From Patiria pectinifera (taxonomy: Eukaryota > Echinodermata > Asteroidea > Valvatida > Asterinidae): a stretch of DNA of 64,000 bases. The DNA lies in the NCBI GenBank assembly GCA_029964075.1, contig CM057144.1:16515281-16579280 (forward strand), read 5' to 3'. The translations under genes and the position numbers were made by a program. A model generated the notes under the pieces. That model was not told the origin of the DNA and searched no databases. It worked only from the letters and a program-made list of their open reading frames with translations. This document shows positions 11,572 through 57,700 of the stretch, in pieces. The stretch's first letter is position 1. The number at the start of each line of letters is the position of its first letter.

Positions 11572-12582
11572 ATGGCAGAGCCTCTGCTGATCCTCCGCAT
11601 TATCAAGACACTCGTTGGGCTGCTTGGCTTGATTGGCAACACCGTCGTGGCTACGGTTATTTACAAAGTGGAGTTCATGCACACCCTGACCAATGCTTTC
11701 ATCTGCAACCAGGCTGTGGTAGATTTCCTGGGCTCGCTCTTCCTGATACTGAGCAGCAACATTGCGGCTCCCGACCCCCTACCGGACACCCTGGGTTATC
11801 ACGTAGTCTGTCACATCTGGCTATCTAATCTGTTCATGTGGGCTTGTTTCACCTCCTCCACCGTCAACCTGCTCTCGCTGACATGCGAGCGCTACGTGGC
11901 CATAGTCTACCCTTTCCGATACGCTCGTCTCTATACCAATAAAACCGTAGTTCTGATGCTGGTCATCATCTGGCTATCGGGACTGATTCTGGACGGCGCC
12001 TACACGGCAGCAGTCAACACCTTCGAAGATGGTAAATGTTTCTACTCCTCCGCGATCGGCTCTCGAGCCCTGGGCATCGTCTTCATCATGTTCAAGTTCT
12101 TCATCCCAGCGATCTTTATGGTGTTCGTCTACTCCCACATAACGGTGGAGCTGAAGCGAAGCGCCACTCGTATCGGCAACATCGCCCCGACCGTATCAGC
12201 TACCGTCCATTCGGGAGCGAGCACGGCGGCCTCGAGCGTCGAGGCCCCAGAGCAGTCCCTGCTGCGAGCCCGCCGTAACGTCTTCAAGACCCTCCTGATG
12301 GTATTCGCTACTTTCCTGGTGTGCTGGACCCCGAACCAGGTCATCTTTTTCATGTTCAACTTCGGCTGGAGTCTGGACTTCTCCGGGGCCATTTACATCA
12401 TTTCCGTCTCTCTGGTGGCCATCAATTCTTGCGTCAATCCTTTCATCTATGCCTTCAAGTACAAGCAGTTCCGACGTGGGTTCCGGTCCCTAATTGGGCG
12501 GGGAGGCCAGGCTGAGGAGGACTCGCTCCAGACCTCCGAGGCAGCCACTCGCCAGTGGAATCCTAGAAACGGAGCTTCCTGA
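11572..12582 (+). CDS. orphan rhodopsin-like (class A) GPCR, intronless
   Basis: A 336-aa seven-helix receptor in one exon; the ATG has A at -3 and G at +4. The N-terminus is only about seven residues. Helices lie at about 8-30, 41-63, 80-102, 124-146, 166-190, 236-260 and 271-294. Class A hallmarks are present: GN (22-23) in helix 1, D51 in helix 2, C80 paired with C156 in loop 2, the DRY variant ERY (106-108), CWTP (251-254) in helix 6 and NPFIY (289-293) in helix 7. The third loop is Ser/Ala-rich and basic near helix 6, as expected for G-protein coupling. The ligand is not inferable; the ends resemble lineage-expanded echinoderm orphan receptors. A paralog lies 5.8 kb downstream on the same strand. 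Confidence 0.93.
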   Translation: MAEPLLILRIIKTLVGLLGLIGNTVVATVIYKVEFMHTLTNAFICNQAVVDFLGSLFLILSSNIAAPDPLPDTLGYHVVCHIWLSNLFMWACFTSSTVNLLSLTCERYVAIVYPFRYARLYTNKTVVLMLVIIWLSGLILDGAYTAAVNTFEDGKCFYSSAIGSRALGIVFIMFKFFIPAIFMVFVYSHITVELKRSATRIGNIAPTVSATVHSGASTAASSVEAPEQSLLRARRNVFKTLLMVFATFLVCWTPNQVIFFMFNFGWSLDFSGAIYIISVSLVAINSCVNPFIYAFKYKQFRRGFRSLIGRGGQAEEDSLQTSEAATRQWNPRNGAS

Positions 12583-16752: not shown

Positions 16753-18427
16753 TTGAATAGGTATATTGGTCTTCATTAAAAACTTAGCCAAGGAATTTAG
16801 TGAGATGTTAGAATTACAGAATAGGACTGCATGCATATGCCTACTGCACTGACAAAGGAAATTAGACATCCTTGTCGCATTGCTTAGCAGGGACAAACCT
16901 ACAAAACAAGACTCGAAAAAAAGAGGCGAGGCGAAAATGGACTCTATTTTTCATTACGCTTTGTCCGTGAGATGTAATAACTTTGTCAGCTTGGCTAATT
17001 TGATAAGCTGGAGATTTCTCGCCCCCACGTTAATATTTAATATTGCTGTGAGGACAATGTGCTGCGAGCACCAGAAGTAATTTCTCACGTCCGCTAATGA
17101 AGATAAAACTGATGGCGTAGTTTGTATTTTTACTGTTTTGTCCCATTGTGTTTCTCATACACTTCTAAAAAACCACGCTGCCTTTATGAGTTGATTATCG
17201 GGTTTTTTTTAATGACCTTCTTCATCGTACACAAACAAGATGTCCTCTATCCGCCGGTGTCATCAGTGACGTACTTTTTGCAGATTTCGGTACCTCCGTT
17301 GCCCACTTTTTTTTTTTTTTAGATTTAACGTTTCATTTCAGTCTTTATACTCCCATCTAAATGTCCAAGGCCGCTTAAGTCTTGACTTCTTTGTAGTTAT
17401 AGGCACGTAGGGACATCTGTAATTGTCCAGTCACGTGCCTACGAAAATCCTGCTCAAATTGAAGATAGGATTGGCACCAAATACCCTGTGAACTTATTCC
17501 ACCTGAAATTGTATTATTTAAAAGAAAACAATCATTTAAGGTTAACGAAAATGTGCCCGCGTGCACAGTTTTTTAGCGAATGGAATCCAGTTGCGAGACC
17601 CAAGGAACGTTTTCTCTGTTTTCTCAAAAATGTATATAGTTTCCCATGAGCTGAAACGTCAACAAGTTAGTTCTTATGCACCCTTCTTAAGATTTTTAGC
17701 AATTTTGTTGCTTCAAACGAAAGATGTTCTATGTTTCTATATATTATACCTTTAGTGTTGAATTTATATAACTATAACGTTTGTTTGTCACACGTGGCCA
17801 AATTGTTTTGCTAATCAATAATGTTTCCCACGCATGTCTTCCAACACTGCCTTATCGGCGACCACCCTTAGAAACGAGTACCCTCCTTATTAACAAAACT
17901 TAAGCATTTTGTTTCTGGTGCCCATGCATGTTTTAATCAGGTATTAAGTCTGTCACGACTTTATTATGGTAACCACAACTGGGAACATGAACAGCAAAGA
18001 GAAACGTATCACAGTGTTTTAATTAAAAGTGGTCATCGGTCAGGCTATAGGAGTACGTGTTAATGAATGGCTACAGCAAACGAGTTGTAGCATCGTGACG
18101 TACAAAAGCAGACACCTTTTAGTAGGCCTACCCATGCAGAAAACCTCATCAGCTAATCTTCTTGTCATAAGCTTTACGCCCTCCGGCCTATCATGTTCAA
18201 GCGAACATGATTGGCTGTTGCGGGCGAATGCGCTCAAGTTGACGCCAGATTGATGAGCCATTGATAATAAGGATGCTGCGTGGTTATAATGATCTAATCA
18301 GAGGGTTCAAGTGGTTCTCTCGGCATTGTTCACACAAGCAAAGTAGACTCAATACTTTCAACAGGCTTTTACCGAAGCAGGTAGTTTGGGGCTCGTCGAT
18401 CAGTCACAGTTTTCATCTGTCGAGGCA
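16753..18427. other. upstream flank of GPCR 2
   Basis: No gene is recognised in this 1.7 kb. A poly-T run is at about 17309-17322. The promoter of the second receptor should lie near the right end; I see no convincing TATA box. Confidence 0.4.
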
Positions 18428-19480
18428 ATGGCGGAACCAATACTGGCTCTCCGCATCATTAAGACCATCATAGGTATCCTAGGCATTTTGGACAACGGTC
18501 TAGTCATCCTAGTCATAGCCAAAGTCAAGTTTATGCACTCCTTGACTAATGCCTTCATCTGCCACCAAGCTGCCATCGATCTGATCGGTTCCCTCCTGCT
18601 GCTCCTAGGTAGCAACATCCCAGACCCAGACCCCGCATCCAGCACCGCGGCAGGCGAGGTGCTGTGCCGGCTTTGGACCGGAGATGCGCTACTATGGCTT
18701 TTCTTCGTCGTCTCCACCTTCAATCTGCTCGGGCTGACGCTGGAGCGGTACTTCGCCATCGTCTACCCCCTGCGTTACCTGGCGTTCTTCGGTCGCCGGG
18801 CGGCTGCCGGTATCATGCTGACCGCCTGGGGTGTCGGCATTGCGCTCAAGTCTTACTCCTTCCTAATCTACACCGTGGTGGACGGAGCCTGTAGGTTTCA
18901 GCGCATCTCGGTGTCCCACGTCATGGGGCCTCTCCTGATCTGCCTCCAGTACTTCCTCCCGGCTGGCGTGATGTTGTTCTGCTACAGCCACATCACTGTG
19001 TCGCTGAAGCGCAGCGCCCTGAGGTTGGCCCCGGCCCCGGCGCCTATCATCAAGCCCCGAGCCAAAGACGACCAGTCACCGGACGAGCCTGCCCAACGCC
19101 CCGCCAACGCCGCCGTCTACGACCCGCAAGACGCGCTCTACCGTGCCCGTCGCAACACCTTCAAGACCCTGGTTATCGTCTTCGTCGTCTTCTTGATATG
19201 CTGGAGCCCCAGCCAGATCACCTTCTTTATGTTCAACGTGGGCTGGCTTCAGCTGGAGTTCACCAGCCCATTAAATGTCTTCAGTACGTCCATGGTAGCT
19301 GCCAACTGCTGCATCAACCCCATCATCTACAGCTTCAAGTACAACCAGTTTCAGCGCGGTATCAAACGCTTCTTTCTTGGCGAGAGAGCAGACCAAACCA
19401 TCTCCGGCTCCGGAACTTCCAACACCAAGCAACAAACATCCAAGAATCAGAACAATACAAATTCGACTGTAACCAACTGA
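18428..19480 (+). CDS. orphan rhodopsin-like (class A) GPCR, intronless paralog
   Basis: A 350-aa single-exon receptor. The ATG at 18428 aligns with the MAEP start of the first receptor and is the first ATG of the frame. Helices fall at the same places; C80 pairs with C155, the ionic-lock motif is ERY (106-108), helix 6 has CWSP (258-261) and helix 7 NPIIY (297-301). Shared blocks such as KFMHSLTNAFIC, RYFAIVYPLRY and RARRNTFKTL show common descent with the gene at 11572. Odd point: helix 1 has LDN where most class A receptors have GN. Loop 3 is longer and Pro/Ala-rich, and the C-tail is Asn/Ser/Thr-rich. The exon is GC-richer than its surroundings. The ligand is unknown. Confidence 0.93.
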   Translation: MAEPILALRIIKTIIGILGILDNGLVILVIAKVKFMHSLTNAFICHQAAIDLIGSLLLLLGSNIPDPDPASSTAAGEVLCRLWTGDALLWLFFVVSTFNLLGLTLERYFAIVYPLRYLAFFGRRAAAGIMLTAWGVGIALKSYSFLIYTVVDGACRFQRISVSHVMGPLLICLQYFLPAGVMLFCYSHITVSLKRSALRLAPAPAPIIKPRAKDDQSPDEPAQRPANAAVYDPQDALYRARRNTFKTLVIVFVVFLICWSPSQITFFMFNVGWLQLEFTSPLNVFSTSMVAANCCINPIIYSFKYNQFQRGIKRFFLGERADQTISGSGTSNTKQQTSKNQNNTNSTVTN

Positions 19481-23518: not shown

Positions 23519-26500
23519 ATGGCTGAGCTGGGCAAGAAGGCTCAACGTAGGAGAAGAGGCAGACCCAACAGGAGTAACAACAAAATGCCTTCCAAAGATG
23601 AGCTGAAGCTTTGCACAGCGTATCTGTACCGCAAAGACGGCTGTAGCAGAGAGGATGACTGTAACTCTCTCCATATCTGCCGGTAATCTATCCAGTACTT
23701 TTTTATATAAAAAAAACAGTATAATTTAGCCCCATGTCATTTACAGGGGGACTCTTACGGGCTCTCATTTTCTCGAGGGGTTACTTGACAGGTTTTCAAC
23801 AACTTATAAAAAGTCTTATCTTCCCTCCCCAAACTCTGAGCAGGAACACAAGTCGGGGGAGGGAGGGCCTCAAGCTTTGAGTTGGGGGAACCATGATGTC
23901 CCCCCCCCTGCACATTTCCCTGGTGTATGCCACTGATAACAACATAGAATGCTCACAATGTTCACTTCTGATATGCGCATCCAGTTTGTTAATCCAGCTT
24001 CAAGGCTAGCTCCTTACTGAGATATCGTAAACCTTTATTTTCTAGTTTTCTGCTATATAATCATATTAATAATAATTTGGGAAGATAAGGCCAAAAAAAA
24101 AAAATACTTGGTCTCTGGTCAGCGCGCGCGTCGATTTTAATCATACGCGTCAACCTTTTTTAAATTAACACGGAAGCTACAACAGCGCCCTCTATTGCTC
24201 AATTTTTGTACCAAGGAGCACCAAGGAATGGGGAAATTGCACCAAGGCAAATGATAAAGGGCACCAAGGCAAATTATGGAGGACACCAATGTATAATGAG
24301 GACACAAAAAAGCAAAATAGTACCCACCTTGTCTGTACAATACAAGCTTGGAAAAAAACAACGCGTCGCCCATTGAATTCCGGAACTTCAGTCTGACCAG
24401 AGACCGACTATTTTGGGGGGGGGCCTAATCATCCTTAAGTGAAGCTGAGAAGCTGAATTGTGAAGGACGCTGCTAAAATGTGGTCGAGTCGCTGGCATGT
24501 AAAAGTGAAATAATGCTGCATGATATTATACAGATGAGGCTTCTCCCACTTTTAGAAATATCCCGCCCTGATTGTGAAAAATCAGTGCAAACAGAAAAAA
24601 ATAGAGACGTTGCGTACCAAACTAAAGGGGGGGGGAGGGACATTGTGCACCACCCCACCCCTTTTCAGAACTTTTGAGCAGAAAAATACTTTGTGTTGTT
24701 TGAAATTGTGCACAAATCATGAGGCCTCCCACTGGCCAAGTTACATGTACATGTATGCTAAGTACTTTTTTTTTTAAACAGGAGTAAGATGTAAAATGGC
24801 ACCTAGGTGGATGTTCCATTCAATTCCGACTGAATTTTTTATCTTATATCTTCCTGACAGCCACTACATACTGCAGTCTTGCCGAGCTGGGAGTGCCTGC
24901 AAATTCTCCCACGACCTCAGTGGCAGGCAACCAAGAGCCTTGTTCCGCAGACGATTTGGGATTGAGCACCTAGACGGACAATCACTGCATAAATTCAGGG
25001 AGCTTTTTGCTGCAACTCTGAGAAAGCAGCCCACGGGAACGTCAGACCAGGAAGAGCGCGGGGACAGTGGGATAGAGCCCCAGGAAAAGTTGATGAACTT
25101 CCTGCTGAGCTTCGAGAATGCTGATGAAACATCTTCACAAGATAATTATTATGATGACAACGAAGATTGCTCGAAGGGGAAGGAGCCATACGGACAGACA
25201 ACCCAACAAGCTAGGCCGTGGCAGAACAAACAACCCAAGATCTGCTCCTTCTTTGTGGGCGGGGTCTGCAAATTCACCTCCCACTTGGGTTTCAGGCACT
25301 GCTCCAGTCCATACCAGTGGCAGATTCGAGATGGAAGGCGCTCTGACTGGCTGGACCTCACACGGCAGCCAAATGACGCAATCGAGAAACATTTCTGCGA
25401 TGTCAAAAATGGAGAGTTCAGTGGAGCCATTCTTGCTTGGTGAGTTTCCTTCAAAATGTGGCAGTCACTTTTAAACCTGAACTAATATGCTGCTCAGTCT
25501 CCTCTTGTGTAGCATCATTAAGCGGACATGCATGCATGGTCGTAAAATGTAGTATGGCATTGAAGAAGTGCACTTGTTGCCCAATTACTCATTAGGCAGG
25601 GCAGAGTAGATTGGTCTACAATTGGTATTATTACAGTTTACAAATGCTTCCTGGCCTCTTTGCTTTCGAGTGTTGTTCCCCAGCATATGCCTCAGAAGGG
25701 ACGCTGTTGCATACTCTCATAGTTATTATTTCTGTTTTTAACCAGACACTTACTTAGGAGACGTTTTCTTTACTTGTCTCTTGCAGTTCTGAGGAAAACA
25801 AGAACAGTGTTTTCTACAAAGTGACGATAACATTCGGCGTGGAGTCTTTCAGCGTCAGTAGTGACAGGATTGACAGAGTCTTGGATGTGCGACGTCTTTC
25901 CACAGTGTCTGAAGCACAACCAGCGCGTCCTCGGAAGGGTCATAGCACTCTGTGGACGTGGTACTGGCAGGACACCAACCAAAACTGGATCAAGTTCCCG
26001 GTATAAAGTCACATTTTGTACCCGTTCCTGTCTGTTATTATGAAAGCAAAAAACACGCAAATATCTAAAGATATCCACTTGACAACATTACATGTCTTCA
26101 AGATGTACTCAACAACAGATTTAAAAACTATTTACTAGCGAATTAGACATTGAACCAAACAATCCACTGCCGGTAATATGTTGAATTACATTTGAATTAT
26201 TTGGGGCTTGACATTAATTCGGCTCTTGCCAGGCGGGTTCATTTGTGTGCAAAATTAAAGTTTTTTCTAAATATCGGACAAAAACGAGCAATTTCATTTA
26301 ATTAAAACAAATCATAAATATTCAAAATTCAAGAAGAAAAAAATCTACTTTTTCCTTTTTAATCTCCTTCCACTAAAATATTGATTATTTTGTATTGTTT
26401 TAAAAAAAAAAATGACATTTTACCTATTATGGCTACATCCACTAAAATCATTTTTTCCATCACAGAATTCAGATTCCTGTTCCCCCTTGTCAAGCAGCCT

Positions 26501-29500
26501 TGAAATCGAAAGGAAATATCTGAACTTCAAGATTCAGAAAGGATCGCCTCAGCTTGACGTCACTACAAGGCTTGGGGAATGCCAGATTGACTTCTCCCAA
26601 ATGGAATTGACGAGTCCAGCACTGGACTACACTCATCCCCTGGCACGAAGACCCAAGTGGAAGCCATCATCAGAACAAGGATCTTGTGATGGACAAAGGT
26701 ATGTATATAAAGTGGCGTATCCTCTCCGCAAAATTGAACACTTTTTCCCTCAAGGGTTGTGGAAATTTCCGAAATTCCCCCCCCCAAAAGAACACCCTGT
26801 TCAGCCTGATATTGTACATTTACTGATATGATGATATACATATGATGATTTACATTCACACTCCCAATTTTTTGTCCATTTTCCTGATCATATTTTCAAT
26901 TTGTTTTTTAATTTTGGTTTTCCCCAATACTCAAAAGGGGAGAGGTCCCTCAGTCCTTTTCTTAAACCCTCCCCCACACTTTATGGTCAGGACTGAGAAT
27001 TTATTTTCAGGATAACCACATCTTTGTATTAACAAGAATTTGATTTAATGACAGTCAGTGGTATAACCAGCAGAAGCCGTACCAGGCTTAGGTATATACC
27101 CTTTCGCTTATCCTGTTCAAGTCCAAACCCATCATGCATTAATTTGTTGACTCCCATAGCTAGTCGATTGAAATGCCTGGAAAACATTGTTATTTGTACC
27201 TTTTTTATTTAGTCTGTTTTTTTTGGGGGGGGGGTCTTGTTCTTATCCTGAAGTGATCCTGTGGGCAGTCTAGATAACCAGTCCTCTGCTGTGACACAGC
27301 AGAAGGGGCCAAAATCAAGGGTTCGCACCCGAAAAGTATCCCATGGGGGTCTGCAAGATGCTGAAGCTGCTGCAGAAAGTATGGGACTCCAGAGGGAATC
27401 AGAAATGCCTCCTCCAAAGAAAGCCTCCTCCAAAAAACCAGGAGCCATCCACTCTAAAACATCATTGGACAGCAAAGTTTCTGGAGATGCTGATAAGCCA
27501 CAGAAAGAGGGACAGAAAACAAAACACCCAAAACTTGCGGCGAAGTTTGCTGGAGCTTCCCAGCCCATTGAACCAGAAGTAGGATTACACTCATGCAAGG
27601 AGGTCCCATTTGGGGAGCAGTTAGCCAGCTTTCTAAAAGCGCAAGCCAGTGATCTAGGTGATGGTGAGGAACCAGCGTTGCAAGAAAGCTCCTCGAAGCC
27701 GCAAGAAAGTACCCAAGTTGTCCGACCCAAGACCAGGAACCCATCAGGTCCATCCCAGATCCTTCCACTGATCTCTTCCACCTCTGAAACCATGACGACA
27801 AAAGACAGCCAGCCGACCCGTCGTCCAAACCAGAGGGAGTTTACCTACATCTGCCCGTACTTTCTACGGGGCAGGTGCATACACCAGGATGATAAGTACA
27901 CTCACAAGCGTCACTTCCCTACCCCGTACCAGTGGCAGTTCCTAGACACGATGGTTCACGGAGCAGACTGGCAGGATTTTCCCTCCGCTGAGAACGATCG
28001 TGTGGAGAAGTCATTTTGTGATGTGGAATGCGGCACCCATTCCAGTTTAAGGTGAGTTTACATTCTTTTCACACACATCTTATAATCAAACTATAATTAT
28101 CAAGTTAATTTTTGATTATTTCTGGGTAGTAATTTAATGTCCCACATATCTGCATTGGTTTGATTCACTAATGGTCATTAGAAATCAAAGATCTCAAGAA
28201 ACACAAGTTTGTGGGTTGCATGTCTGCCCATAAAAACAAGCCTCACTTCGTGTACATGTAGTACATTTGATTGTTGTGACAAAGGCATAATTTTCCCTGC
28301 AACGTATGTTGTAGGTGCACACAATATCAGCTAGTCACTCTTAATATTTTTTAACCTGTGTCTCTATTTTTCATCGATTTGTGATGGCCATAATCTAGTT
28401 TGACTTGTGATGGACTTGATTTGTAATTAAGTATCACACTGGGAATGGCCACTGAATGTTTGTGCATTCCTCTTAGTAAAGAAACCCTGTTTAACGGTTT
28501 TACACTTGTTTTTTTTTTCAGTTGCGCACCTGCATCTATATGGGACATCTTTTTTGAAGGAACTCGTATGCATGGATCGACGATTCTGATCCACATCCGC
28601 CGCTTGTCCACCTCGTCCAGTGTCTTGAAGAGCAACTGGGAGAAGGCGTTCTGCACCGAGTGGATCTGGTATTGGCAGGACGAGACAGAAAAATGGATCG
28701 TGTACTCTGAACAGGTCTGCATTACACTTAATATTTTGTAATATCTATCATGTTTACAATACAAATTTGACATTGACATACCAGAGAACTGCCAACTATA
28801 GGCTAACTGTGACAATCGCAAACTTGCAAAAACTTTTTTTGTTTTTTTGTCTTGAAATTGAATGGTTTAAATATTTCTTTTAAACTAGACTTCGCTATTT
28901 CTGACAATTACTTGTGCTAAGTATTATCGCCAAACCTTTTTTATTCCTTTCTCTCCCTTTTTTTCCCTCAGAATTCCAAAGGCATACATGCAGGCATCGA
29001 CAGTGCCGCCATCGAGGAGAAGTTCCTGGTCTATGAAAGCAAAAATGGGGAGTCAGTTGTCAACTTTACGGCTGGGAATCAACAATACACATTGGACTTT
29101 ACTGCAATGGAGCAGACTAATGTTCATTACAGAACACGCCGAGAAGTCCGGCGAAGACCGAAGTTTGTTGCCATGGACGAGCGCAAGATACTGGCAAAGT
29201 GAGCAATTCTGGGTTTTTTCTTTAGATAATTAGGAAACAAACTTTTCAGTTGAAATTCAATAGTTTTTATGTGTGTGTTAGTATTCAAATTAAGTCAATT
29301 TAAATTCATTAAATGTACAGGGAGCTATCTAAAGCGCAAGCAGGCGGTGTTGTCGTGCCAACCACCTGGGATAATCGAGGCACACAGACAGAAATGAAAC
29401 TGGTGAGGCTAACGGATTACACCAGCCCAGAATACACCATCATCGCCAACTTGTTCTGGGACACCATGGATAACAAGGGAACCATCGTCTCCATCAAGAG

Positions 29501-30991
29501 AATACAAAACCTGGAACTCTGGGAAGACTTCTACAAGTAAGTATCACTTTTTATTTTGTCAGTAGCTACGTGTATTAGCAATGCTAATAGTTGCTGGAAT
29601 CATAAGCGTTGAAGTCGTCAACATCGGCAGTTATGCGAAGTTTTTGGGCGAACATGGTATTCCCATATTTCAAAATGTCAACAGTATTCGAACCGGCATA
29701 CAGAACACAGCTTTCTTAAGAGCTGGTTTTAATACATGCAATATTTGAAAGGGCAGAATTATGTCATTTATGCGTGTACAAACAAAAACAAATGAAGCAT
29801 CGTTATACGATTAGCATGCCTTTATGATTTTCTTTTATCATGGCATTTTTTCAAAATAGCAAAATTGAGTTCATGATATCAGCTGAGTGAATGTTTGAGT
29901 GGAAAATAACAGTTAAAATTCATTTTAAATTGTTACAAGGATTATTAAGGATTTTTTATACCTCTTATTGAAATGTAAATATTAGGATTAGGTATGTTGT
30001 AAGTATTAGCATGTAAGTTCGTTCACAGGCTTGAAAAAGAAAAAGAAATCCTAGACTTCTTCAGATAACAGTAGAACATGCTTGCTTGCAAATATCTCAC
30101 CTCAATGATTGTTGGTTCATTTTTACACATCTTTCTGTTACTCACAGAAAGGGTGAACGAATGAAGAAGAAAAATGGTAGCAAAGTTGTCTCTACCAAGC
30201 AGCTATTTCACGGAACGACGTCAGAAAAATATGCTAGCGCCATCTGCAGTCAGAACTTTGACTGGCGACTCAGCGGAAGTAACGTTGGTACTCGGTATGG
30301 CAAAGGCAGCTACTTTGCCCGCGACGCTGTCTTCGCCCATAGCTACACCAAGTCCGACGATCTGAACCACCGCTATATGTTCGTTGCAAAAGTTCTGGTA
30401 GGCGCCTATTCAACCGGCCAATCAGAATATACAAGGCCGCCACCCAAAGACCCGCGGAAGCCACTAGAAGACCTGTATGATTCCTGCGTGAACGACACGG
30501 CAGATCCCAAGATATATGTCATCTTTGAAAAAACCCAGGTGTACCCTGAATATCTGATCAAGTACAGCGAGGTCTCCAGGTACCAGCCAGCACCAACACC
30601 TGCACCACGAAGCAGAGTTCCTCCAACCACAGCCCAGCGAGTACCAGTTGGGAACCCATATACCACCTCTAGTTCCAGAACCCAAAGCCAATATGCCACA
30701 TCTAGTTTCGCAGCCCAAAACCCATATGCCACATCTAGTTCTAGAACCCAAAACCCATATGCCACATCTAGTTCCACAGCCCAAAACCCATATGCCGCAT
30801 CTAGTTCCGCAGCCCCAAACCCATATGCCACATCTAGTTCTAGAACCCAAAGCCAATACACATCCTCCAGTTCCGGGACCCAAAGCCCAACCACTACCCC
30901 TTCAACTTCTGCCAACTCACAGAGCGGATACACCCGTGCATCTTCTAATCAGTCCCAACAAAAACAACAAAACAAGTGTACCATACAATAA
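23519..30991 (+). CDS. PARP12-like: PARP12/ZAP-like CCCH-WWE-PARP mono-ADP-ribosyltransferase, copy A (intact)
   Basis: The nine coding exons are 23519-23682, 24861-25439, 25787-26000, 26466-26698, 27269-28051, 28522-28714, 28972-29198, 29321-29536 and 30148-30991. All borders are GT-AG and the frame is continuous for 1150 aa. Domains: two N-terminal CCCH fingers (C-x9-C-x5-C-x3-H, then C-x7-C-x5-C-x3-H ending CKFSH); a finger ending RHCSSPYQWQ, then WWE 1 (WTWYWQDTNQNWIKF) at about 250-395; a Ser/Lys-rich linker; a second finger (YICPYFLRGRC...H) and WWE 2 (WIWYWQDETEKWIVY) at about 600-795; a PARP domain at about 870-1010. The triad is H890 (HGT), Y924 (GKGSYFA) and I991 (KIYVIF), i.e. the H-Y-I type of mono-ADP-ribosylating PARPs. 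A Ser/Tyr-rich repetitive tail ends the protein. Vertebrate relatives are RNA-binding antiviral or stress factors. An acceptor-like TTTTTCTGCACTAG about 50 bp before the ATG suggests an additional 5' non-coding exon. Confidence 0.9.
24101..24415. mobile_element. MITE inserted in intron 1 of PARP copy A
   Basis: Inverted termini include a perfect 13-bp core GGTCTCTGGTCAG (24110-24122 and inverted at 24393-24405), extending with mismatches to about 22 bp (AAAATA...). The element interrupts a SINE 3' end: AATAATAATTTGGGA lies just left and the SINE body (CTAATCATCCTTA) just right. It is absent from the corresponding intron of copy B, so it is a post-duplication insertion or was lost from B. Confidence 0.6.
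24424..24515 (-). mobile_element. SINE 3' fragment
   Basis: CTAATCATCCTTA, GCTGAATTG-GAAGGACGC and GCTGGCA-GTAAA match the 3' half of the minus-strand SINE at 16405-16752. The pol III head is missing. Confidence 0.65.
30653..30883 (+). repeat. coding 33-bp minisatellite in PARP copy A tail
   Basis: Seven in-frame 33-bp units encode 11-residue repeats of the form NPYATSSSRTQ / SQYATSSFAAQ. The tail is Ser/Thr/Tyr/Gln-rich and probably disordered, after the catalytic domain. Copy B also has seven units (44115-44345) but with different unit variants. Confidence 0.9.
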
Positions 30992-34067: not shown

Positions 34068-37000
34068 AGAGTTGGCCTGATTTGATTTTGCTTGTTTTTT
34101 TCTGCACTATACTAGGGCCTCAGTCTGCCAAATTACAGGCTTCATCATAATCAGCATAGATCACGGCTGAGCCGGGCAAGAAGGCTCAACGTAGGAGAAG
34201 AGGCAGACCCAACAGGAGTAACAACATCAAAATGCCCTCCAATGATGAGCTGAAGCTTTGCACAGCATATCTGTACTACAAAGACGGCTGTAGCAGAGAG
34301 GATGACTGTAACTCTCTCCATATCTGCCGGTAATCTATAAAGTACTTGGCAATAAAAAACTGGGACATATATTTGGCCTGCTTTGTCTGTGCATTGTCTG
34401 TTGACTGACATATGACCAGTCTCGGGGCTTGCTAGACACACTGGTTTGATCTGACTGTTTGTGAAATTCTTTTTGAATGTGACTGTTTAAATAGTTGGAG
34501 GGTTAATGACTTTAAAGTTTGTGCACTGTGGCCCCTCCCACTTTCAGAAATATCCCGCCCTGATTGTGAAAAATCAGTGCAGACATTTTATAGTTGCGTA
34601 CCAAACTAAGGGGGGAATAGGGACACGGCCTCACTCCAAGTAATCATATTTTTTAAATCCTGTTTGTACATGACAGCCACTACATCCTGCAGTGTTGCCG
34701 AGCTGGGAGTGCCTGCAAATTCTCCCACGACCTCAGTTGCAGGCAACCGCAAGCCTTGTTCCGCAGACAGTTCAGGATTAAGCACCTAAATGGTCAGTCA
34801 CTGCATAAATTCAGGGAGCTTTTTGCTGCAACTCTGAGAAAGCCACCCACGGGAAAGTCAGACCAGGAAGAGCGGGGGGACAGTGGGATAGAACCCCAGG
34901 AAAAGTTGATGAATTTCCTGCTGAGTTTCAAGCATTCTGATAAAACATCTTCACAAGATAATTATCGTGATTGTGATGACAGTGAAGACCACTCAAGGGG
35001 AAAGGAGCCTTACCGACGGACAACCCAACAAGCTTGGCCCTGGCTGGACAAATATCTTAAGATCTGCTCCTTCTATGTGGGCGGGGGCTGCAAGTTCACC
35101 TCCTCCCACCGGGGTTTCAGGCACTGCTCCAGTCCATACCAGTGGCAGATTCAAGATGGAAGGCGCTCTGACTGGCTGGACTTCACACGGCAGCCAAATG
35201 ACGCAATCGAGGAACATTTCTGCGATGTCAAAAATGGAGAGTTTAGTGGAGCCATTCTTGCTTGGTGAGTCTTGCTTTCAATTGTTGTTCCCTAGCTGCT
35301 TTAGGAGTGTCGCTGTCGCATACTTTCATGGTTATTATTTCAGTTTTTATCAGACACTTTCTCAGGAGACATTTTCTTTACTTCTTGCAGTTCTGAGAAA
35401 AACATGAAAAGAGTTTTCTACAAAGTAACGATAACATTTGGCGTGGAGTCTTTCAGTGTCAGTAATGACAGGAATGACAGAGACTTGGACGTGCGACGAC
35501 TTTCCACAGTGTCTGAAGCACAACCAGGGCGTCCTCGGAATGGTCATAGCACTCTGTGGACGTGGTACTGGCAGGACACCAACCAAAACTGGATCAAGTT
35601 CCCGGTATAAGATACATTTTGTGCGCAATTTGTGTCTAAAATTTAAAAAAATTCAGAGGGGTGCAGACACCCAATATCGGACAAAAAGTTGTTTTTTCTT
35701 TTAATTTAAACAAATCATAGATATTCAAAATTCAAGAAGAAAAAAATCTACTTTTTCAAGAGCACCACTGATCTTTAATCCCAAACCATCTATCCGCCTT
35801 TTCTTTTAAATCTCCTTTGACTAAAATATTGATTATTTTGTATTGTTTAAAAAAGAAGAATGACATTTTACCTGTTATGGCTACATCCACTAAAATCATT
35901 TTTTCTTTCACAGAAGTCAGATTCCTGTTCCCCCTCGTCAAGCAGCCTTGAAATCGAAAGGAAATATCTGAACTTTGTGATTCAGAAAGGATCACCTCAG
36001 CTTGATGTCACTACAAAGCTGGGGGAATGCCAGATTGACTTCTCCCAAATGGAACTGACGAGTCCAGCACTGGACTACACTCATCCCCTGGCACGAAGAC
36101 CCAAGTGGAAGCCATCATCAGAGCAAGGATCTTGTGATGGACAAAGGTATTGGCAGTTCTCTATCCCAAGGTTTAATCCGCAAAGATTATAAACTTTTTT
36201 CCTCAAGGGTTGCTGAAATTTCCTTACTTTAACGAGAAAAGAAACTGTTGAGCCTGAAATTGTTCATCTCCTGACATTCACAAGGGTTGGTGCAATTCAC
36301 TCCCATTGTGTGTGTCTATTTTCCTGATCATATTTTTTATTTATTTTTTTATTTTTCATTTTTCCCCAAAATTCAAATGGGGAGAGGTCCCTCAGTGCTT
36401 TTTTAAGGCCCTTCTCCCACTTTTTGGTTAATTAATGAGAGTCAGTGTTGTAACTAGTAGCCATGCAAGGCTTTAGTAGATCTTGCCCTTTTGCTTATCC
36501 TGTCAAAGTCGAACCCATCATAAAATAATTTGTTGACTCCCATAACTATGGAAAATATTGTTATTTACATTTTTTCTACTTAGTCTGTTCTTTTTCATCC
36601 TGTTATTATCCTGAAGTGATCCTGTGGGCAGAAAGGGGCCAAACGAATCCGGCACTCCTAAAAAATCAAGCATTCGCACCCGAAAACTATCCCGTGGGGG
36701 TCTTCAAGATACTCAAGCTGCTTACAACTCTGAAGTGGGTAAGGGTACGGAAAGCTTACTGGGCGTGCCCAGGGAAACAGACATGCCTCCTTCAAAGAAA
36801 GCCTCGTCTGTGCAAAAGGATTTGTTCGTCAAAACAAAGACGGCTGAATCCTTGGCCCATCCCTCAGCATCGTCAGACACTGGAGCTTCTCTTTCCTCTG
36901 AAGAGGGAAGGAAAACAAAATTCCCAAAAGCTGCAGAGAGGCTGTCCAAAGCTCGCCAGCCTGTTGAACCGGGAGCGCAGTTACTCTCTTCAAAGAAGCG

Positions 37001-38000
37001 TGAAGTCCTATCTGGGGAGCAGTTAGCCAGCTTTCTTAAAACACGAGCCAGTGATCTAGATGATCGTGAGGAACCAGCATGGAAAACCTATTTGAAGCCT
37101 CAAGAAAGTGTCCAAGTTGTCCGACCCAAGACCAGGAACCCATCAGGTCCATCCCAGATCCTTCCACCAGTCTCTTCTACCTCTGAAACCATGACGAGGA
37201 AAGACAGCCAGCCGACCCGTCGTCCAGACCAGAAGGAGTTCACCTACATCTGCCCGTACTTTCTACGGGGCAGGTGCATATACCAGGACGATAAGTATAC
37301 TCACAAGCGTCACTTTCCTACCCCGTACCAGTGGCAGTTCCTAGACACGATGGTTCACGGAGCAGACTGGCAGGATTTTCCTTCCACTGAGAATGATCGT
37401 GTGGAGAGGTCATTTTGTGATGTGGAATGCATCGAGCATTACAGTTTCAGGTATGTTCATATGCTTTTCAGTATTTAGAGTTTGAAAGTGTAGGAAGCAC
37501 ATCTGCTGTGACCAAAACTTGCATGCCAATACACTATTTATGTACATAATCTATTTGTTTTTCTTTTCTTTAATTAACGTACAGAAGCTGTAACTTGGTT
37601 TCAGAAATCAGTTCCTGAGTTCCTAAAATAGAATAAGTTTGAGGGTTGGAGCACTGCCTTGAATGAAGCCTAAGTAGTGCAGCTGATTGTTACGTGAACC
37701 TTTGGATAATGAATATTTGCCTGCAGAGTTGTAGTCAGGTGCACACAGATCTATCAAAATTCATCTGATCTCAAGTCAAGTTGCAAAATATTGAAGAAAG
37801 TATTCTTTTGTTATTGTTCATCCTCCGATACTTGTGACCCAACTTTTGATTGACTTGTGATGGACTTGACTACAATTCTGTCACCCGGAGAAAAGTTTCT
37901 TCCAATTATCACATTGAAGGGTGATATTATATTCTTTTCACAGTGGTGTGCCATCGTCTATAATGTACATCTATTTTGATGGAACTCGCATGCATGGTAA

Positions 38001-41000
38001 GGCCCCATCTCGATAATGAATGCCCGTTATTTCCCGTTCTGTCTGCGTTCCGGACGATCAGTCTGCAGTTGTCAAGGAGGGCGAGAATCTGCAGACTGGA
38101 CGGGTGTGTGCGTTCAAGCACGGCAACTTTAATGAGCTAGACCAGCCGTGCGCTTTTGTTATCTCAACAATGATTCAATGAATAAACATGAGTCACCGTA
38201 GACCTCATGAATACACACGGTCGGTACGCAGAAAGACGTTCCGTTTTGTTATCAAACAAAACATTGTACATTATGATTGTGTGAGCGGGAACCGGCCTTT
38301 TAAATACAAGTGAATATAATAGCGGAGCGAAGATCGAAGCGAATTCGTCATCTGCAAACGTTTCCAGAAAGGTTTCTGTAATAAATATAATAATTTATTT
38401 CATGGCGAGAATATGAACTGGCCGTATATGAACGTTAATTTCACGGAAACCTTTAGGCTTTGAACCGAGTTTTCTTACAAAGATCGTAACAAAAGCCAAT
38501 GGTACATGGAACATAATCACTGCGTAAGATAACTGCCAGGATAACCCCTCTTTTTTGTCATTCTAACAAAATATCTCACTGCATTTTGCTCCGAGATTGC
38601 CGTTTTTCAATGCAAATTAATGTTTTGGAAGTTCTCCACTTCATCGCAATGAAATAAAAAACGATGTGTCACGTAAGTTTGCCGCGAAATTCTGAAGATT
38701 TGAGAAGTTTTATGCTTCTATAAGAATTACCATTTGAAAATTTGAATGAACACAAATTGAGATGGGCAACATTCCGGGTTGTAAATCACTGCTTAACGCT
38801 TGGAAAGAATTGTGAGGGTCTAAAAGGATGCGATTCAATTCTTATTTTTTTTTGACGTACATAAAAGGCCAAGTAGTAAAATGTTTTAAGAAAAGAATAC
38901 ATGAAACAGCCGTTTTGCTGGCGGGGATTTCCCCACAGCACGCAACGCAAATAGTCAGCTCCCAAATACAATTGCGTACTAATTCAAGTGGCTGTGATCC
39001 TGGTAACACGACGCGTCGACGACACATCCAAAACGGTATGCATTTTAGTTTGCCGACCGCACATGCAAGACGCAGAAGGACCTGACGCACAGACTTCGTG
39101 CACATTTCACCAAGTTAGTGACAAAAGGGGACATTTTGCTGCGTCGTACTACTGCAAGTAGTGGTACAGCTTCAACACCTTGGACAAATGGAATTTCCTT
39201 CTCCAAGTTGCACATTTAATTCGAATCCCGATGGTCATGACAGTTTGGTATTCGACTAGTGAGGATCCGACGTTGACTCCATCTAATCTATGATCTAGAC
39301 CACATGCTCCATCGCTTTGCAGGATTATTAGTATTAACAGAATCGTTTGAAATCATATTAACCTAAAGTGTTTTATAACTGGATAGTAAACTTTTTGGAT
39401 TAAAAACGGACTGATTTTGAGTAGGAGAGTGCAGTTAGATAGATTGATAAAATAATGGGGCATAATATTATAGTCACGTCACCATGCATGGTCACTCTAA
39501 TTTATATAAAAACGCATGGTTTTTTATTAAATATAAAATATCAATATTTATGATTGTATAACAATAAAACGATTTCAAAAATTAGGCATGTGAACAACCT
39601 CATCAAATGCAAAATGTAATGAACTAAGTTCGGGGTAAATATTTTCGAGAAATGAACATCGCACTGGTTAAAAATTGTATTCCCCGGCCGGGCCATGCCG
39701 CACCGGTACGTAGGCACAGCTGTCTAATAATAAACTCCCCAGCCCTACTCATACGCCTGCACGGTAAACAGCCGTTGACAACTCCAATCTATCCTGGCCT
39801 TTGTGGGAAAGGTTGGCTCATTGCCAAACAGAGCGTGGGAAACAAGACAAACATGTATATCGTCATGGCTACGAAATTCTGCCACCAATGAGAAGACCCG
39901 ATGCCAACATCCGAGCAAAACAGTTTCAGTCGACATGGCTGATAGGTCATAAAAAGCGGCACAGCTAGGACCGCCCAAAACTCATCACAGTTGAAATTCA
40001 TGCGGATTTCTCAAACACTTCCATCATAGCAACATAATTGTCAAGGAAACCAGTGACGTGCAGTGAAGGCCCTCGTAAATATTCATGAGTCAGTTTCTAC
40101 CAAAAAGTCTTCCATAATGATATTGGGTGATTTAAGTTCATCTACTCGTGCTCTTTTGTCTGCACTAGATATTGGTATACTCCTAAAACTGTGCAATAGG
40201 CCTACACGACCAAGTGGTTTTCTTGTGCATAGTCATTTTCTACCCTCTGAAAATTAGTTTTTATTCTTTTAATATTTTTTTGCTCCCATCAAAAAAAATT
40301 GTTCGGCCGCAGTAAAACAAACTTTATTATTCGTTGATTTCGATGTCACATTCAGAAGTGAATGACACCATATTATTTCATAAAGAACACAATATATATT
40401 TTTAAAAGCATAGAGACTAACTTTATGCTGTATTTTCTAAAGATACTACATGTACGTTGTTTAGTTTTCAATATTTCTTACATATTCATTACACGATAGA
40501 GCAAGGAACATGATTAGCCTACACTCATCATTTTTCTTACATTCTAGATTGCGGAAATGAACTCTCTAATACCTCGCACAGTCAAATTAAATTAATGAAA
40601 ATGACAATGCATAATTATGGAACTTCGGTAGGATAATTACTATTTTGGGGGTGTGGGGCATTAATTCTTCGAATGCTTTATTACTCCACATTAATTACAA
40701 ATAATTATATTATAATGAATACCGAAGGGTCTCTTGATGAAGTCTAAATATTTTTAACAACATTTCATATCATTGCCATGACGTGGTAACTTGTGATGGT
40801 CTCCCCGTCTCGTCAAGTAAATGGTGGCTTCTTGAGTACCTACTCAGAAATCGACAAGGAAATGTTAATACACATGTATATTATATATATTAGGCCAAGC
40901 AAATTTTCAATACATAGCAGAATGTTTGATGTCCAAGGAATCCTCATTTAATTAACAATAAGTTGATTTTTAAGTCAGGTTTGTACCAATCATAACAACA

Positions 41001-42191
41001 AAGTTGCGATTTTATTCCCTGGACCTTTATTCTGTCCGGACGCGCAGAGAAAACACCGCGATGCGGCCAGACACAATGCCACACAGCCCACCGCTCGCTA
41101 CGCGTTTGGCACGGTCAAAGTATAGTTCAGATCCCGCTCCACACTGCACAACACAGCAACAGGGATAATGCGTGCACATTACCACGTGTCAAACAAGTCT
41201 GACAACGGCCGATCCCGCTCCACACAAAGGTAGTAGACTATCAGTCTGGTTCCAACTCTCGCGACCGTTGTCAGCCACAATTTGCTCGTTTCGCCTCTGT
41301 TGTACCGGGGAGTTATTTCTCCGTGGTTACTTGTACTTGTGCCTCTCTATTATTACAATCGAAACCGTCGGATCGAACACGTACGTATTGTACGAAAACT
41401 GGCGTTAAACCACCATGTTTTTTTAAAATAATACCAGAAAAAATTACTTGCTGAAAAGGCTTATACTAGGCCCCCTTCATTTTTGGATTTTGCATTTGAC
41501 CATTTTTTGTTTTGAAGTCGGTATCGTATTTTTTTTTTCCATCCAAACCAAGACAATTTTGTGGGGTCGCTTTTTTAGCGCTTTTAAAAGGGGCCGTCGC
41601 GCAGTTGACTAAACCAAAAGTATTTTTTTTATATCGTGACAAATGTTTTTACTTATTAACTCCTCTCGTTGTTTAGGTTCTGGTAAGAGAATTCGTGAAT
41701 GCCGGTGAAAAAAAAATCGTGAATAAGGCCGGTCTCACTAGCGCGAAAGCCAACGCCAATTTTTGGCGCATATTTAATTTAGTTTGCAGGGTGAGCAAAA
41801 TGAAGACGTAATTTTGACTTCGCTTTGCGTGAGTTAGGTTAAACCGTTGAACCCGTGTACATGTACATTACCGCACAAGTATAATACTAGTCACATTACA
41901 TTCCTTCATGTGCTCACGAGGCGAGGCTCACAACATGGCTATAGTAGTTGCGGTTTTGCAGGTCGGTATTCTGCAGACTGACCGGCCATTCATATTTAAA
42001 TGATCTCTCTGGCACTGAGCCTGGCCCGGCGGGTCTGCAGAAGATCGGGCATATTCACACCTTTTGTTATTTAAATGAATCGTTCTGGACCGTGCCAGGA
42101 CGGGTTGTCAAGGGCTCTTTTGTTCAAAAAGTCTGCAGGATCCTTCAGAAAGAACGGGGTACCGACGCCCATTCATTATCGAGATGGGGCC
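38001..42191. mobile_element. 4.19-kb non-autonomous PIF/Harbinger-like transposon in PARP copy B exon 6
   Basis: The ends are perfect 22-bp inverted repeats (38001-38022 and 42170-42191) beginning GGCCCCATCTCGATAATG. The flanking TAA is duplicated (37998-38000 and 42192-42194). A TWA 3-bp duplication and G-rich termini are typical of PIF/Harbinger. Subterminal CTGCAG-centred motifs (AGTCTGCAG, ATCTGCAGACT) recur near both ends. No transposase or Myb-like frame is visible; only short frames occur. The left junction creates a donor-like ATGGTAAGG, and an AATAAA lies at 38181-38186. Confidence 0.85.
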
Positions 42192-44114
42192 TAACACGAT
42201 TGACACTGCCCTCCGTCGCTTGTCCACCTCGTCCAGTGTCTTGAAGAGCAACTGGGAGAACGCGTTCTGCACCGAGTGGATCTGGTATTGGCGTGATGAG
42301 ACAGGAAAATGGATTGTATACTCTGAACAGGTCTGCCTTACAATGAATGAGTTGTAAAGATACTGATAACAGGGAACTGCAAAGTTAAGGCTTGACCGAT
42401 CAGAAACAAGCTATTTAAATGAACGGTGGCAACAGCATACTCCTAAACTCACTCGTTATTTGTCTTGAAATTAACCGTGTTTTAACTGTTTCTTTTAAAC
42501 TGGACTTTTATTTTTGCCAAGTATTATTTCAAAATCTTTTTTGTTCGTTTCTTTTTTATTTTTCAGAATGCTAAAGGCTTACAGGCGGGCATCGACAGTG
42601 CCACCATCGAGGAGAAGTTTGTGGACTATGAGAGGAAAAATGGGGAGTCGGTCATCAACTTTACGGCTGGGACTCAACGATACACACTGGACTTCACTGC
42701 AATGGAGCAGACTAATGTCCGATACGGTACACGCAGAGAAGTCCGGCGAAGACCCAAATTTGTTGCCATGGACGAACGCAAGATACTGGCAAAGTGAGAC
42801 ATTTTTTTCTTTTTGAGTTCGAAGTTTTGAACAAAAAAACGATCATTTTAATTGTCGACTGCTGTGAAAGGACATTGTGTTTTTGTACACCGGAGGGACA
42901 CATGGAACCCAAGGTGCATCCTTGCAGGGTGGGTAAAAACAAAGAACAGAACAAATGGAGAAAAAAAACATGTCCAACATCACACAGTCAACAGTTGTTG
43001 TGTTTTATATTACAATCAAAACAACAAAGGCTTAGGCTAGTTCATGCTTGGTATTAAAGTGAACATGTATATTTACATAATGGCAAGTACTTTTGCAGGA
43101 TAAGAAATTTGATGTTAAGCTTTTTTAAAATTACAAAAAAATGTTTTTTAAATTGAAGTTTTTGTGTGTGTTAGTATTCACTGGTATCAATTCGAATTCA
43201 ATTTTGAAAATGTACAGGGAGCTTTCTAAAGCACAAACAGGCGGTGTTGTCGTGCCAACCACCTGGGATAATCGAGGCACACAGACAGAAATGAAACTGG
43301 TCAGGCTGACGGATTACACCAGCCCAGAATACACCATCATCGCCAACTTGTTCAGGGACACCATGGCTAACAAGGGAACCATCGTCTCCATCAAGAGAAT
43401 ACAAAACCTAGAGCTGTGGGAAGACTTCTACAAGTAAGTATTGATTTCATCAGTAGCTCAGGCAGTATGACGCGTATGAGTTGCTGGAACCATAGGTATT
43501 GAAGTCGGCAACATCTGCAGTGATCTATGCAAAGATTGAACTTGGGGGCACATGGTATTTCCAAATTTCTGTTCGTTTTTCTACACATAATCAATGGTCT
43601 TATTACTCACAGAATTAGTGAACGAATGAAGAAGAAAAATGGCGGCAAAGCTGTCCGTACTGAGCAGCTGTTTCACGGAACGACATCTAAAAAATACGCC
43701 AGTGCCATCTGCAGTCAGAACTTTGACTGGCGACTCAGCGGAAGTAACGTTGGTACTCGGTATGGCAAAGGCAGCTACTTTGCCCGCGACGCTGTCTTCG
43801 CCCATAGCTACACCAAGCCCGACGATCTCAACCACCGCTATATGTTCGTCGCAAAAGTTCTGGTGGGCACCTATACAACCGGCCAATCAGAATATACGAG
43901 GCCGCCACCCAAAGACCCGCAGAAGCCACTAGAAGACCTGTATGATTCCTGCGTGAACGACATGGCATATCCCAAGATATATGTCATCTTTGAAAAAAAC
44001 CAGGTGTACCCCGAATATCTGATCAAGTACAACGAGGTCTCCGGGTACCAGCCAGCACCCACACCTGCACCACGAAGCAGAGTTCCTCCAACCACAGCCC
44101 AAGTACCATTTGGG

Positions 44115-44345
44115 AACCCATATACCACCTCTAGTTCCAGAACCCGAAGCCAATATGCCACATCTAGTTCTAGAACCCAAAGCTCATATGCCACATCTAG
44201 TGCCACATCCCAAAACCCATATGCCACATCTAGTTCTAGAACCCAAAACCCATATGCCACATCTAGTTCCACAGCCCAAAACCCATATGCCACATCTATT
44301 TTTAGAACCCAAAGCCAATACACATCCTCCAGTTCTGGGACCCAA
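44115..44345 (+). repeat. coding 33-bp minisatellite in PARP copy B tail
   Basis: Seven 33-bp units in frame, same 11-residue pattern as copy A but with units such as SSYATSSATSQ and NPYATSIFRTQ not seen there. Confidence 0.9.
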
Positions 44346-44639
44346 AGCCCAACCACTACCCCTTCAACTTCCGCCAACTCACAGAGCGGATACACCCGTG
44401 CATCTTCTAATCAGTCCCAACCAAAACAACAAAACAAGTGTACCATACAATAACACAAATGCAAGTACCCTCAAGTGGAAGACCAGATGAAGGTTGAACC
44501 CTTGGTATGTTGTTTCCAGCCTGAGAACTGTGCACAAATACCGCGTCAATGGTTACAATGAGAGGAGGGATGTATTACTGCTATACAGACTTGCTGTTAA
44601 TGTCAAGATGCTATGTGTTTTGGGCATTCTTAATATGAA

Positions 44640-54722: not shown

Positions 54723-57700
54723 TCATACAGCGGATGACAATTTGTGTTGTAATGGGTTATTGGTGAGTAGGGACTGTACCGTTCCTGCTACTTTGACTAG
54801 TCCCTTGCCTTCAAGGATATCAGCTGACGTACACAGCTTTTCCTGAGGAGAAAGAAGACAAGTGTAGTCAGTGTTATGGACATGTTACTAATTGTGGATT
54901 TATAATGGGTTAGGAGACTGGGTACAAATGATGGATCAAGCCAGTGTTTTAGTCGAATCCATCACAAGTCTTCACAAGTCCTCACAAGTCCTCACACGTC
55001 CCTGCAAGTCCTCACAAGTCCCTGCAAGTCCTCAAAAGTCTCTGTAAGTCCTCACAAGTCCCTGCAAGTCCCTGCAAGTCCCTGCAAGTCCCTGCAAGTC
55101 CTCGCAAGTCCTCACAAGTCCTCACAAGTCCCCGCAAGTCCTCACAAGTCCCTGCAAGTCCTCACAAGTCCCTGCAAGTCCTCATAAGTCCCCACAAGTC
55201 CATGCGAGTCCCTGCAAGTCCTCGCAAGTCCTCACAAGTCACCCAGTTCCAATTCAAATCACAAGCCACTTCCCATAGAAACCTGTAACTGTCGATTTGA
55301 ACTGGTTCCATTGACTGTCTAGTTACCAGACTCCTCGTGGCATGCACTTGAATAAGTACATACAGCAAAGACTCTGAGGTTATGAACATGGTGACCATAC
55401 TAATCCTTTTTGTGAACTTACCACTGGGACTCCCGATGTGGCGCAAGCCTTCAGGAAATTCTCAACATTCCTCCGACATTTTGCTGACGACAGTTTAGGC
55501 TGCAAGACCAAAAATATTTCTATTTATTAAGGATTTGGTTGTAGATGAACACGCAATTTAAAATGCATGATAAATCTGACATGCGTATTGACATTTGTGT
55601 GGTTTTGAATAATTCTGCTTTGTCAATGTTCATGTTTCATTCAGAATTTTTTGCAAAAATAGACTGATCAAAAGGAATTTTACTTTTTTATCACCTTATA
55701 AAAAAGAACGCAGAATTCTGAAGCTTTTTGAACTAGTTATGCCATCTAACTTTTTCACTCTAAAACCAAATATTCCATTTCGGTGACAAAAAATGCGTAC
55801 ATTGCTACCAAAGTAAAGCTAATTCCATCCTCTTTTTAATAGGAAAAAATGACCTCAAAAACTAAGCAACTCACTTCAAGGCAGAAGAGAAGTATTTAAT
55901 GTTTGTTGTGCAAACCCTCTTCTGTCCCGGTAGGTTTTGTCCCCAATTTCATAATATTTTATGGCCAAAGCAAAGTGGAATTTCAAGCGCAGCATTTTGT
56001 GGTGGAGGATAACATACCACAGCAGGTGACGGTACATGGATGGTAGGCACAGCGTGGGGGAACACATTATTCATGAAATGGCACAGCACGACACCATCCT
56101 CCAACGCCGCCGGGATGTCATCAGGCAGGTTGACCTTTAACCTGGCCTCAATGCACTGTGGGATACATAGAAACAGACAGACTAGCTATGATCAACTGGG
56201 CGCAAATTCAGGCGAGGACCATTTGTTGAAAAGTGGTTGTTTTGGGACGTAACTTACGCCTGCGCACTAATAAGCAAGGCACCATTGTCTCTATTAAACA
56301 GTGTCATAACGTCATCACAAAGTTTCTTGATCCTGGCTCCCTGCTGTGTTTTATGATGCGCACAGCTATTGGTAACCAGTGATGCAACAGTGTCCTGTGG
56401 TCTGGTTCCTAATAGTCAACTATAGTAGTCCAACCGTTCTGCTTTTCAAGCAAACTATGGCTACCTATAGTTCACGACTGAACTTGCTCTAAGCTTTTTG
56501 ATCATTCAGCAGCATTGCTGTCACTAATGCCGTCAAACGGATGATGGTATGAACTCGTGTACAAGAAAGAGTTAGACACATAGGCCTGGCGCTCATGCAT
56601 CGATGCCATGGGTTTGAACATCATCAGAGTAAAATGTGCCAACTGGCAGACCAGTGAGTGCATGCACTGTGTCTCGCACACTGAGAAGCAGTCAAGAAAT
56701 ACACATGTAGCAACAGGACCAGAATCCATCAAAGCATACGCTCAAATGATATTATAGCTTTTTAATAAAGCCATCCAATCCATTGTTTTAGTGTTTAATG
56801 AGCCAATGCATCGGTCCAAATACATTTGGTTGAAACTGCAATAAACTGTTAACAATCACAGATAATAGCTCATTTTGAGTCTGAACAATTTGATTAAAGC
56901 AGGTTCTTCCTTACGGCAGAAGTTTCGATCTACAGTTTAAAAAATACATGCATCATCAACCATGAAGGACACTGCCAAACTGTACGCGTATTAGTTGTCA
57001 AAATCAAAATACATGTAGAACTAAAAGGAAACAAATAAACTAAAATCATATTAATTCATCTGGGGAATAGCTAACTCCAGGTTAAGTATAACTACAACAA
57101 CAAATTCACAAATTTTTTACTGTCGACTGACACAATTAGACTTGGAGCAAAAAGAAGTTCTGGAAATTAAAGCATGGCGCACCGCTGAATACAAGAACAT
57201 ATGTAAAATGTGAAAAGGAGACAACCAAATTAAAATAAATTATAATGGCAGACCAAAAAAAATCATCACAGTAACATGTACACTGAAATTTAGCAAAGAA
57301 TCCTGAAAAACACAAGCTACTTTTCCTGGAATTAATCGTTTGTCATTACTTGTTTATGTGTGGTATTACACAGACACAATAAATAAACTCTGAAGTCTTG
57401 CATTTAAAAAAAAATTAAAGTACGCAGAAAAAACTTCGAACTTAAAGCATGCAGGTAAAAAACACCAGTAAAACCTGCAGAGTTCAAGTCACATATCGCA
57501 CAATGATTACCATTTGGCAGTGGATGTCGACTGTAAGCGGAATTTGACAGCTTTTCTATAATGTAAATCACCCATATTAACATGGAGCCTTACTTGAAGT
57601 ACGGTTTGTATCAAGGTAAAAGAAAAAAACGCTGAAAGGCCGTCTTTTCGAGGAAGGTCAGTTTCTACCACACAATCTCGCCAATCCACAACCCTAGCTC

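Follow-up and report, generated by a model that had tools for sequence, protein, structure and literature searches.

The window that we analysed is a stretch of 64,000 nucleotides from the starfish Patiria pectinifera (contig CM057144.1, positions 16,515,281 to 16,579,280). It contains two tandem PARP12-like genes of antiviral type, which we call copy A and copy B, and exon 6 of copy B is split by a DNA transposon. Either gene can be modelled as nine exons whose ends are GT-AG and whose phases match. The reading frames are open throughout in copy A, and in copy B only if the element is omitted. The features of the locus are:

23519 to 30991, + strand: copy A gene, modelled as nine exons, without interruption
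28522 to 28714, + strand: copy A exon 6, the uninterrupted paralogue, 193 bp
34163 to 44453, + strand: copy B gene, modelled as nine exons (34163-34329, 34677-35264, 35391-35604, 35914-36146, 36617-37450, exon 6 in the two pieces below, 42567-42793, 43218-43433 and 43613-44453)
34163 to 34165, + strand: lost start codon, ACG in copy B where copy A has an inferred ATG (at 23519); an in-frame Met next occurs at codon 24
37944 to 38000, + strand: left part of exon 6 in copy B, 57 bp
37998 to 38000, + strand: target site duplication (TSD) TAA, left
38001 to 42191, + strand: non-autonomous DNA transposon, 4191 bp; longest wholly internal stop-to-stop frame 90 amino acids
38001 to 38022, + strand: left terminal inverted repeat (TIR), 22 bp, perfect
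42170 to 42191, - strand: right TIR, 22 bp, perfect
42192 to 42194, + strand: TSD TAA, right
42195 to 42330, + strand: right part of exon 6 in copy B, 136 bp

The predicted proteins have WWE (PF02825) and PARP domains, in the order found in PARP12; both scored above their Pfam cut-offs, and WWE_4 scored slightly below its own. The solved structure nearest to the PARP domain of copy A is human PARP12 (E = 1.1e-50), and the central part of copy A, corresponding to ZnF5-WWE, matches the central domain of ZAP (7kzh, E = 2.5e-24). These two matches support the initial annotation, which had described a PARP12-like gene of immune type. N-terminal CCCH-type fingers were recognised by eye, with no model. 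The locus differs from human PARP12 and ZAP/PARP13 (ZC3HAV1) in having two tandem copies, in a Ser/Thr-rich tail that precedes the C-terminal CTIQ, and in the interruption of copy B. (The CTIQ terminus is present in both proteins, at 30977-30991 and 44439-44453, and by eye it looks like a CaaX box. It resembles the CVIS box at the end of ZAP-L, which is described as farnesylated and required for full activity (PMC8568172).) Between copies A and B, the rates of nonsynonymous (dN) and synonymous (dS) substitution are 0.097 and 0.212 (NG86, 1143 codons), or 0.068 and 0.182 for exons 6-9.

The inserted element has perfect inverted ends of 22 bp (GGCCCCATCTCGATAATGAATG) and is flanked by TAA on either side, and what the initial annotation gave for the element (its length, its ends and its duplication) proved exact. 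If the element and one TAA are removed, the two pieces of exon 6 add up to 57 + 136 = 193 bp, exactly as long as exon 6 of copy A, and the frame is unchanged, as had also been claimed. The joined copy B exon reads ...YFDGTRMHGNTIDTALRRLSTSSSVLKSNWENAF... and aligns with copy A. Because no wholly internal frame is longer than 90 amino acids, the window element is non-autonomous and has no transposase of its own. Three longer frames cross an edge of the element: two, of 98 and 92 amino acids, run out into exon 6, and one of 100 amino acids, on the other strand, runs inward. The perfect TIRs, the identical flanking repeats, and the presence of several copies at unrelated sites identify this as a DNA transposon with TIRs and TSDs, and its insertion into exon 6 of the second PARP12-like gene is well supported.

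We searched the 613.5-Mb assembly (1020 contigs) for further copies; the counts of matches to the left and right parts of the element are lower bounds. There are 18 occurrences of the 22-bp end at up to 2 mismatches, including the window's two ends, while the same pattern read backwards does not occur at all, so these ends are not matches by chance. All 18 termini adjoin TWA (TAA or TTA). The left 300 bp of the element has at least 15 matches in the genome and the right 301 bp has at least 16, with the window included in each case; two of the right-end matches are adjacent on C15. Four copies have both ends, and in all four of them the flanking triplets are identical:

window: 4191 bp, TSD TAA
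C14: 4214 bp, TSD TTA, a full-length relative
C1: 2466 bp, TSD TAA, with internal deletions
C7: 2172 bp, TSD TAA, with internal deletions

Thus, the additional copies with the same termini that the initial annotation had proposed to look for do exist: three have both ends, and one of these is full-length. The C14 copy is 98.7% identical to the window copy (54 substitutions in 4165 aligned bases, indels aside). In a fifth copy (L014, on C16), the left end is damaged and the right end is 8.7 kb off. As judged by eye, none of the four two-ended copies contains a long frame of its own that resembles a transposase. Two diverged left-end copies (L016 and L017, at C2:19897739-19906739 and C2:19960585-19969585) lie about 63 kb apart, are 97% alike, and have the same ten bases preceding the end; judging from this similarity, the pair is probably a segmental duplication instead of two insertions. 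Another copy, in L013 (1712-2137 on its reverse complement), lies within an open frame that by eye resembles a retroelement endonuclease.

The initial annotation had also proposed that the insertion was recent, and relative to the gene duplication this is borne out. We compared the left part of six copies and found 7 substitutions private to the window copy in 1009 gap-free columns (0.7%), as compared to 6 to 15 in each of the other five. (L016 and L017 were aligned but were excluded from this count.) Because 0.7% is to be set against half of the dS of 0.212 between copies A and B, the insertion would have about one fifteenth of the age of the gene duplication. The private changes may include changes that were already present in the source copy, so this estimate is rather an upper bound. 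By this measure, the insertion is much the younger event. A divergence of 0.7% falls within the heterozygosity of some animals, and it is plausible that the insertion is polymorphic. We found no empty allele: the only matches to the joined site in the assembly are its own two flanks and copy A (85%).

If the element is retained in the transcript, two of its features may bear on the product of copy B:

38014 to 38016, + strand: in-frame stop TAA on read-through, inside the left TIR
38181 to 38186, + strand: AATAAA, putative poly(A) signal, some 165 bases downstream of the stop

Past the split Gly codon, the frame reads KAPSR and then reaches the stop at 38014-38016. The exons for WWE (PF02825) and PARP lie downstream of it. 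The element contains five AATAAA, as compared to 3.1 expected from its composition, so the presence of this signal is not evidence by itself.

We propose that a non-autonomous transposon, mobilised by a transposase that would have been supplied in trans, entered copy B at a TAA of exon 6, long after the gene duplication. Transcripts that retain the insert would encode five codons beyond the split Gly codon before the stop in the left TIR. The product, if it is made, would have about 680-700 residues; it would keep the N-terminal CCCH-type fingers but would lack what remains of the WWE region, together with the PARP domain and the terminal CTIQ box. To judge from the frame, the protein is probably deprived of its enzyme half, and the insertion would then behave as a loss-of-function allele of copy B. 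Alternatively, if the RNA were polyadenylated within the element, the outcome might be a short isoform without the enzyme, as in ZAP-S. Copy A is intact and could cover for copy B.

We suggest that the element belongs with Zator and not with PIF/Harbinger, and this placement would rest on its coding relatives. Two sequences, L018 (on C11) and L019 (on C7), start precisely with the 22-bp TIR of this family, next to TAA and TTA, and have 245 bp in common with the window element (91.8% identical for L018 and 90.6% for L019). The shared part ends abruptly: the first 600 bp of L018 has 15 matches in the genome; two of them (L018 itself and L019) cover all 600 bp and the other 13 end at or before 245. 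Between L018 and L019 there are five blocks that are 93-98% alike; they extend from base 1 of the TIR into a three-piece gene and are separated by insertions in either sequence. This gene is of DDE type, and in L019 it is frameshifted. Thirty-eight matches to one exon of the L018-type gene are listed in the genome. The pieces of the L018 gene have no match in Pfam, including PF13359 (in scans at E up to 1 and up to 10). L054, an intron-less relative of 621 amino acids that is cut by the end of its stretch, has ISAzo13 transposases as its best matches (NF033519 from NCBIfam, E = 0.001, and PF07592 from Pfam, E = 0.026, both under the curated cut-offs). For the L018 piece at 5857-6507, the sole match is to NF033519 (E = 0.016, under the cut-off), in the same part of the model as for L054; the piece at 4851-5327 has no profile match. 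In both L054 and L018, the spacing from the second D to the E is 43 residues. (DD43E may be a label for Zator; it did not turn up in a literature search or in the available parts of PMC7386202 and PMC8533490.) Searches of solved structures with two L018 pieces, and of plasmids with the L018 and L054 transposases (by tblastn), gave chance matches only. We also considered L037 (on C13) as a relative and rejected it: all that it has in common with the element is the TIR and four bases.

Zator is described as similar to prokaryotic ISAzo13, both having 3-bp TSDs (PMC10045372), and has been placed beside TP36 and IS630 (PMC7386202 and PMC8533490). A TSD of 3 bp, as expected of Zator, was found in all four two-ended copies. 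Together with the coding relatives, whose best match, a weak one, is ISAzo13, this makes it fairly likely from sequence comparisons that the family is Zator.

Overall, our preferred reading is that a recent non-autonomous insertion is predicted to truncate copy B, and that its family is most likely Zator. We give this reading a probability of about 0.78. Several observations weigh against it. Copy B has lost its ATG and could have been impaired before the insertion, and a strong splice donor at the left junction (see below) allows for partial rescue by splicing. The link from the ends to the gene is made by two copies without a right end, one of which has a frameshifted gene. Neither in L018 nor in L019 does the left end have a right-end partner, at up to 6 mismatches, within the 17 kb that was read, and the one 6-mismatch match to the right end in L019 is not beside TWA. 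Nowhere in the assembly did we find a copy with both ends and a transposase. The matches to ISAzo13 all lie below curated cut-offs, a search of the genome with PF07592 at E = 0.001 gave no match (nor did control genomes), and the structure predicted for the transposase core of L054, with six sequences as input, was poor (mean pLDDT 38). Finally, PF13359 transposases, which would suit a PIF/Harbinger element, are common in this genome (at least 152 matches, with 150 of 343 candidates scored).

The insertion of a transposon into an exon is ordinary in kind; it is the gene that is interesting. If our reading is correct, this is a clean and datable case of a transposon that breaks one of two tandem PARP12/ZAP-like genes, and because the exact junctions are named, loss, truncation or splicing-out can be tested in RNA.

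Two features that go beyond the initial annotation, the lost ATG of copy B and the splice donor at the junction, bear on other explanations. The first of these is that copy B was already dying when the element arrived, which would make the element a passenger of a pseudogene. We consider this unlikely, although not negligible. The start codon is changed from ATG to ACG at 34163, and the donor of exon 4 scores 4.83, as compared to 9.53 in copy A. (All splice scores were computed with assumed consensus frequencies.) In contrast, the nine exons are open and have GT-AG ends, and an in-frame Met at codon 24 precedes the first finger. Furthermore, dN/dS between the copies is 0.46 overall and 0.37 for exons 6-9, which also argues against a pseudogene, although NG86 on two copies cannot tell which branch was constrained.

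The initial annotation had assigned the element to Harbinger. Its account of the insertion, of the copies, of the relative recency and of the type of gene stands; this label is doubtful, and we think it unlikely that the element is a non-autonomous PIF/Harbinger. The TWA at 18 of 18 termini and the short TIR that starts with G do fit published features of PIF/Harbinger (PMC4482050, section 5), and the 3-bp TSD that PMC10045372 gives for Zator is nowhere said to be TWA in the available parts of that paper, PMC7386202 and PMC8533490. Nevertheless, the only coding relatives that we found with the same 22-bp end have another DDE gene. Neither the L018 pieces nor L054 matched PF13359 in the Pfam scans, and among the PF13359 matches listed (150 of 343 candidates scored), none appeared by eye to lie within 20 kb of these ends. 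An autonomous Harbinger with transposase and Myb-like genes, which the initial annotation had envisaged, was not found with both ends; we noticed no Myb-like partner alongside these ends, and no search with a Myb model was made. That relatives with the same left end carry an ISAzo13-like gene suggests that TWA duplications alone may not suffice to call an element Harbinger.

Another explanation is that the insert is a nascent intron and that copy B still works. It would be spliced from ATG|GTAAGG, at the left junction, to CTTCAG|AAAGAAC, near the right end:

37994 to 38002, + strand: junction 5' splice site ATG|GTAAGG, made up of exon, TSD and TIR; score 9.25
42129 to 42151, + strand: weak 3' splice site CTTCAG|AAA, from which the exon would start at 42149; score 2.73

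One Gly in a WWE-region loop would be replaced by 15 residues (14 net extra) without loss of frame, and these residues would fall at a four-residue gap in the alignment with ZAP. The junction donor is strong: it scores 9.25, as compared to 4.83 at the same place before the insertion, it ranks sixth of 17 when placed among the 16 native donors, and no 9-mer within the element equals it. Just one of the 39 TWA sites that we counted in the exons of copy B, and none of 28 in copy A, could yield a donor scoring at least 9.2 at the left junction; this count was made post hoc and is a hint only. The frame from the acceptor at 42148 is open, and this is the only open-frame acceptor among those above 2.5 listed between 41850 and 42345. 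(Further in-frame open acceptors are listed at 42112, with a score of -1.13, and at 42304, with 1.96.) Also, published introners include some whose 5' splice site comes from the TSD and some that add codons (PMC9860276), and this insert, a TIR/TSD element whose TSD gives part of the 5' splice site, would share these properties if it is spliced as proposed.

However, the acceptor's score of 2.73 is lower than that of all 16 native acceptors (the lowest is 4.19), and a better acceptor at 42138 (6.23) lies 10 bases upstream and is out of frame. We rejected both 42138 and 41961 as candidates: they are stronger than 42148, but the frame would be broken. Eleven more acceptors with scores of 6 or above lie further within the element, and all of these scores share the assumed consensus. 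Introners would be expected as introns in many genes, whereas none of the three other two-ended copies lies in a frame that is open across 52 codons; this test did not extend to copies placed exactly between exons. In this respect the family is unlike introners. It is possible but unlikely that the insert is spliced out. We regard a nascent intron in a working copy B as improbable, and the fuller scenario, in which an intron is being born at one of 39 TWA sites with an acceptor 43 bases inside the right end and 14 residues added to an indel-tolerant loop, as marginally more so.

That the element was misjoined into the exon by the assembler is highly improbable: our basis is a single assembly, but the exact TSD, the exact TIRs and the restored exon are unlike a misjoin, and the other copies have TSDs of their own and different flanks.

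We also note that C7, which makes up about 7% of the assembly, has 24 of the 38 listed matches to the ISAzo13-like exon, as well as many of the listed PF13359 matches; C7 may be an unusual, transposon-rich chromosome. Elsewhere in the window, two open frames of 371 and 377 amino acids (at 11467-12582 and 18347-19480) look by eye like seven-helix receptors, and 54906-55288 is repetitive, with SSQVLTSPHKS-like units, and is open in more than one frame.

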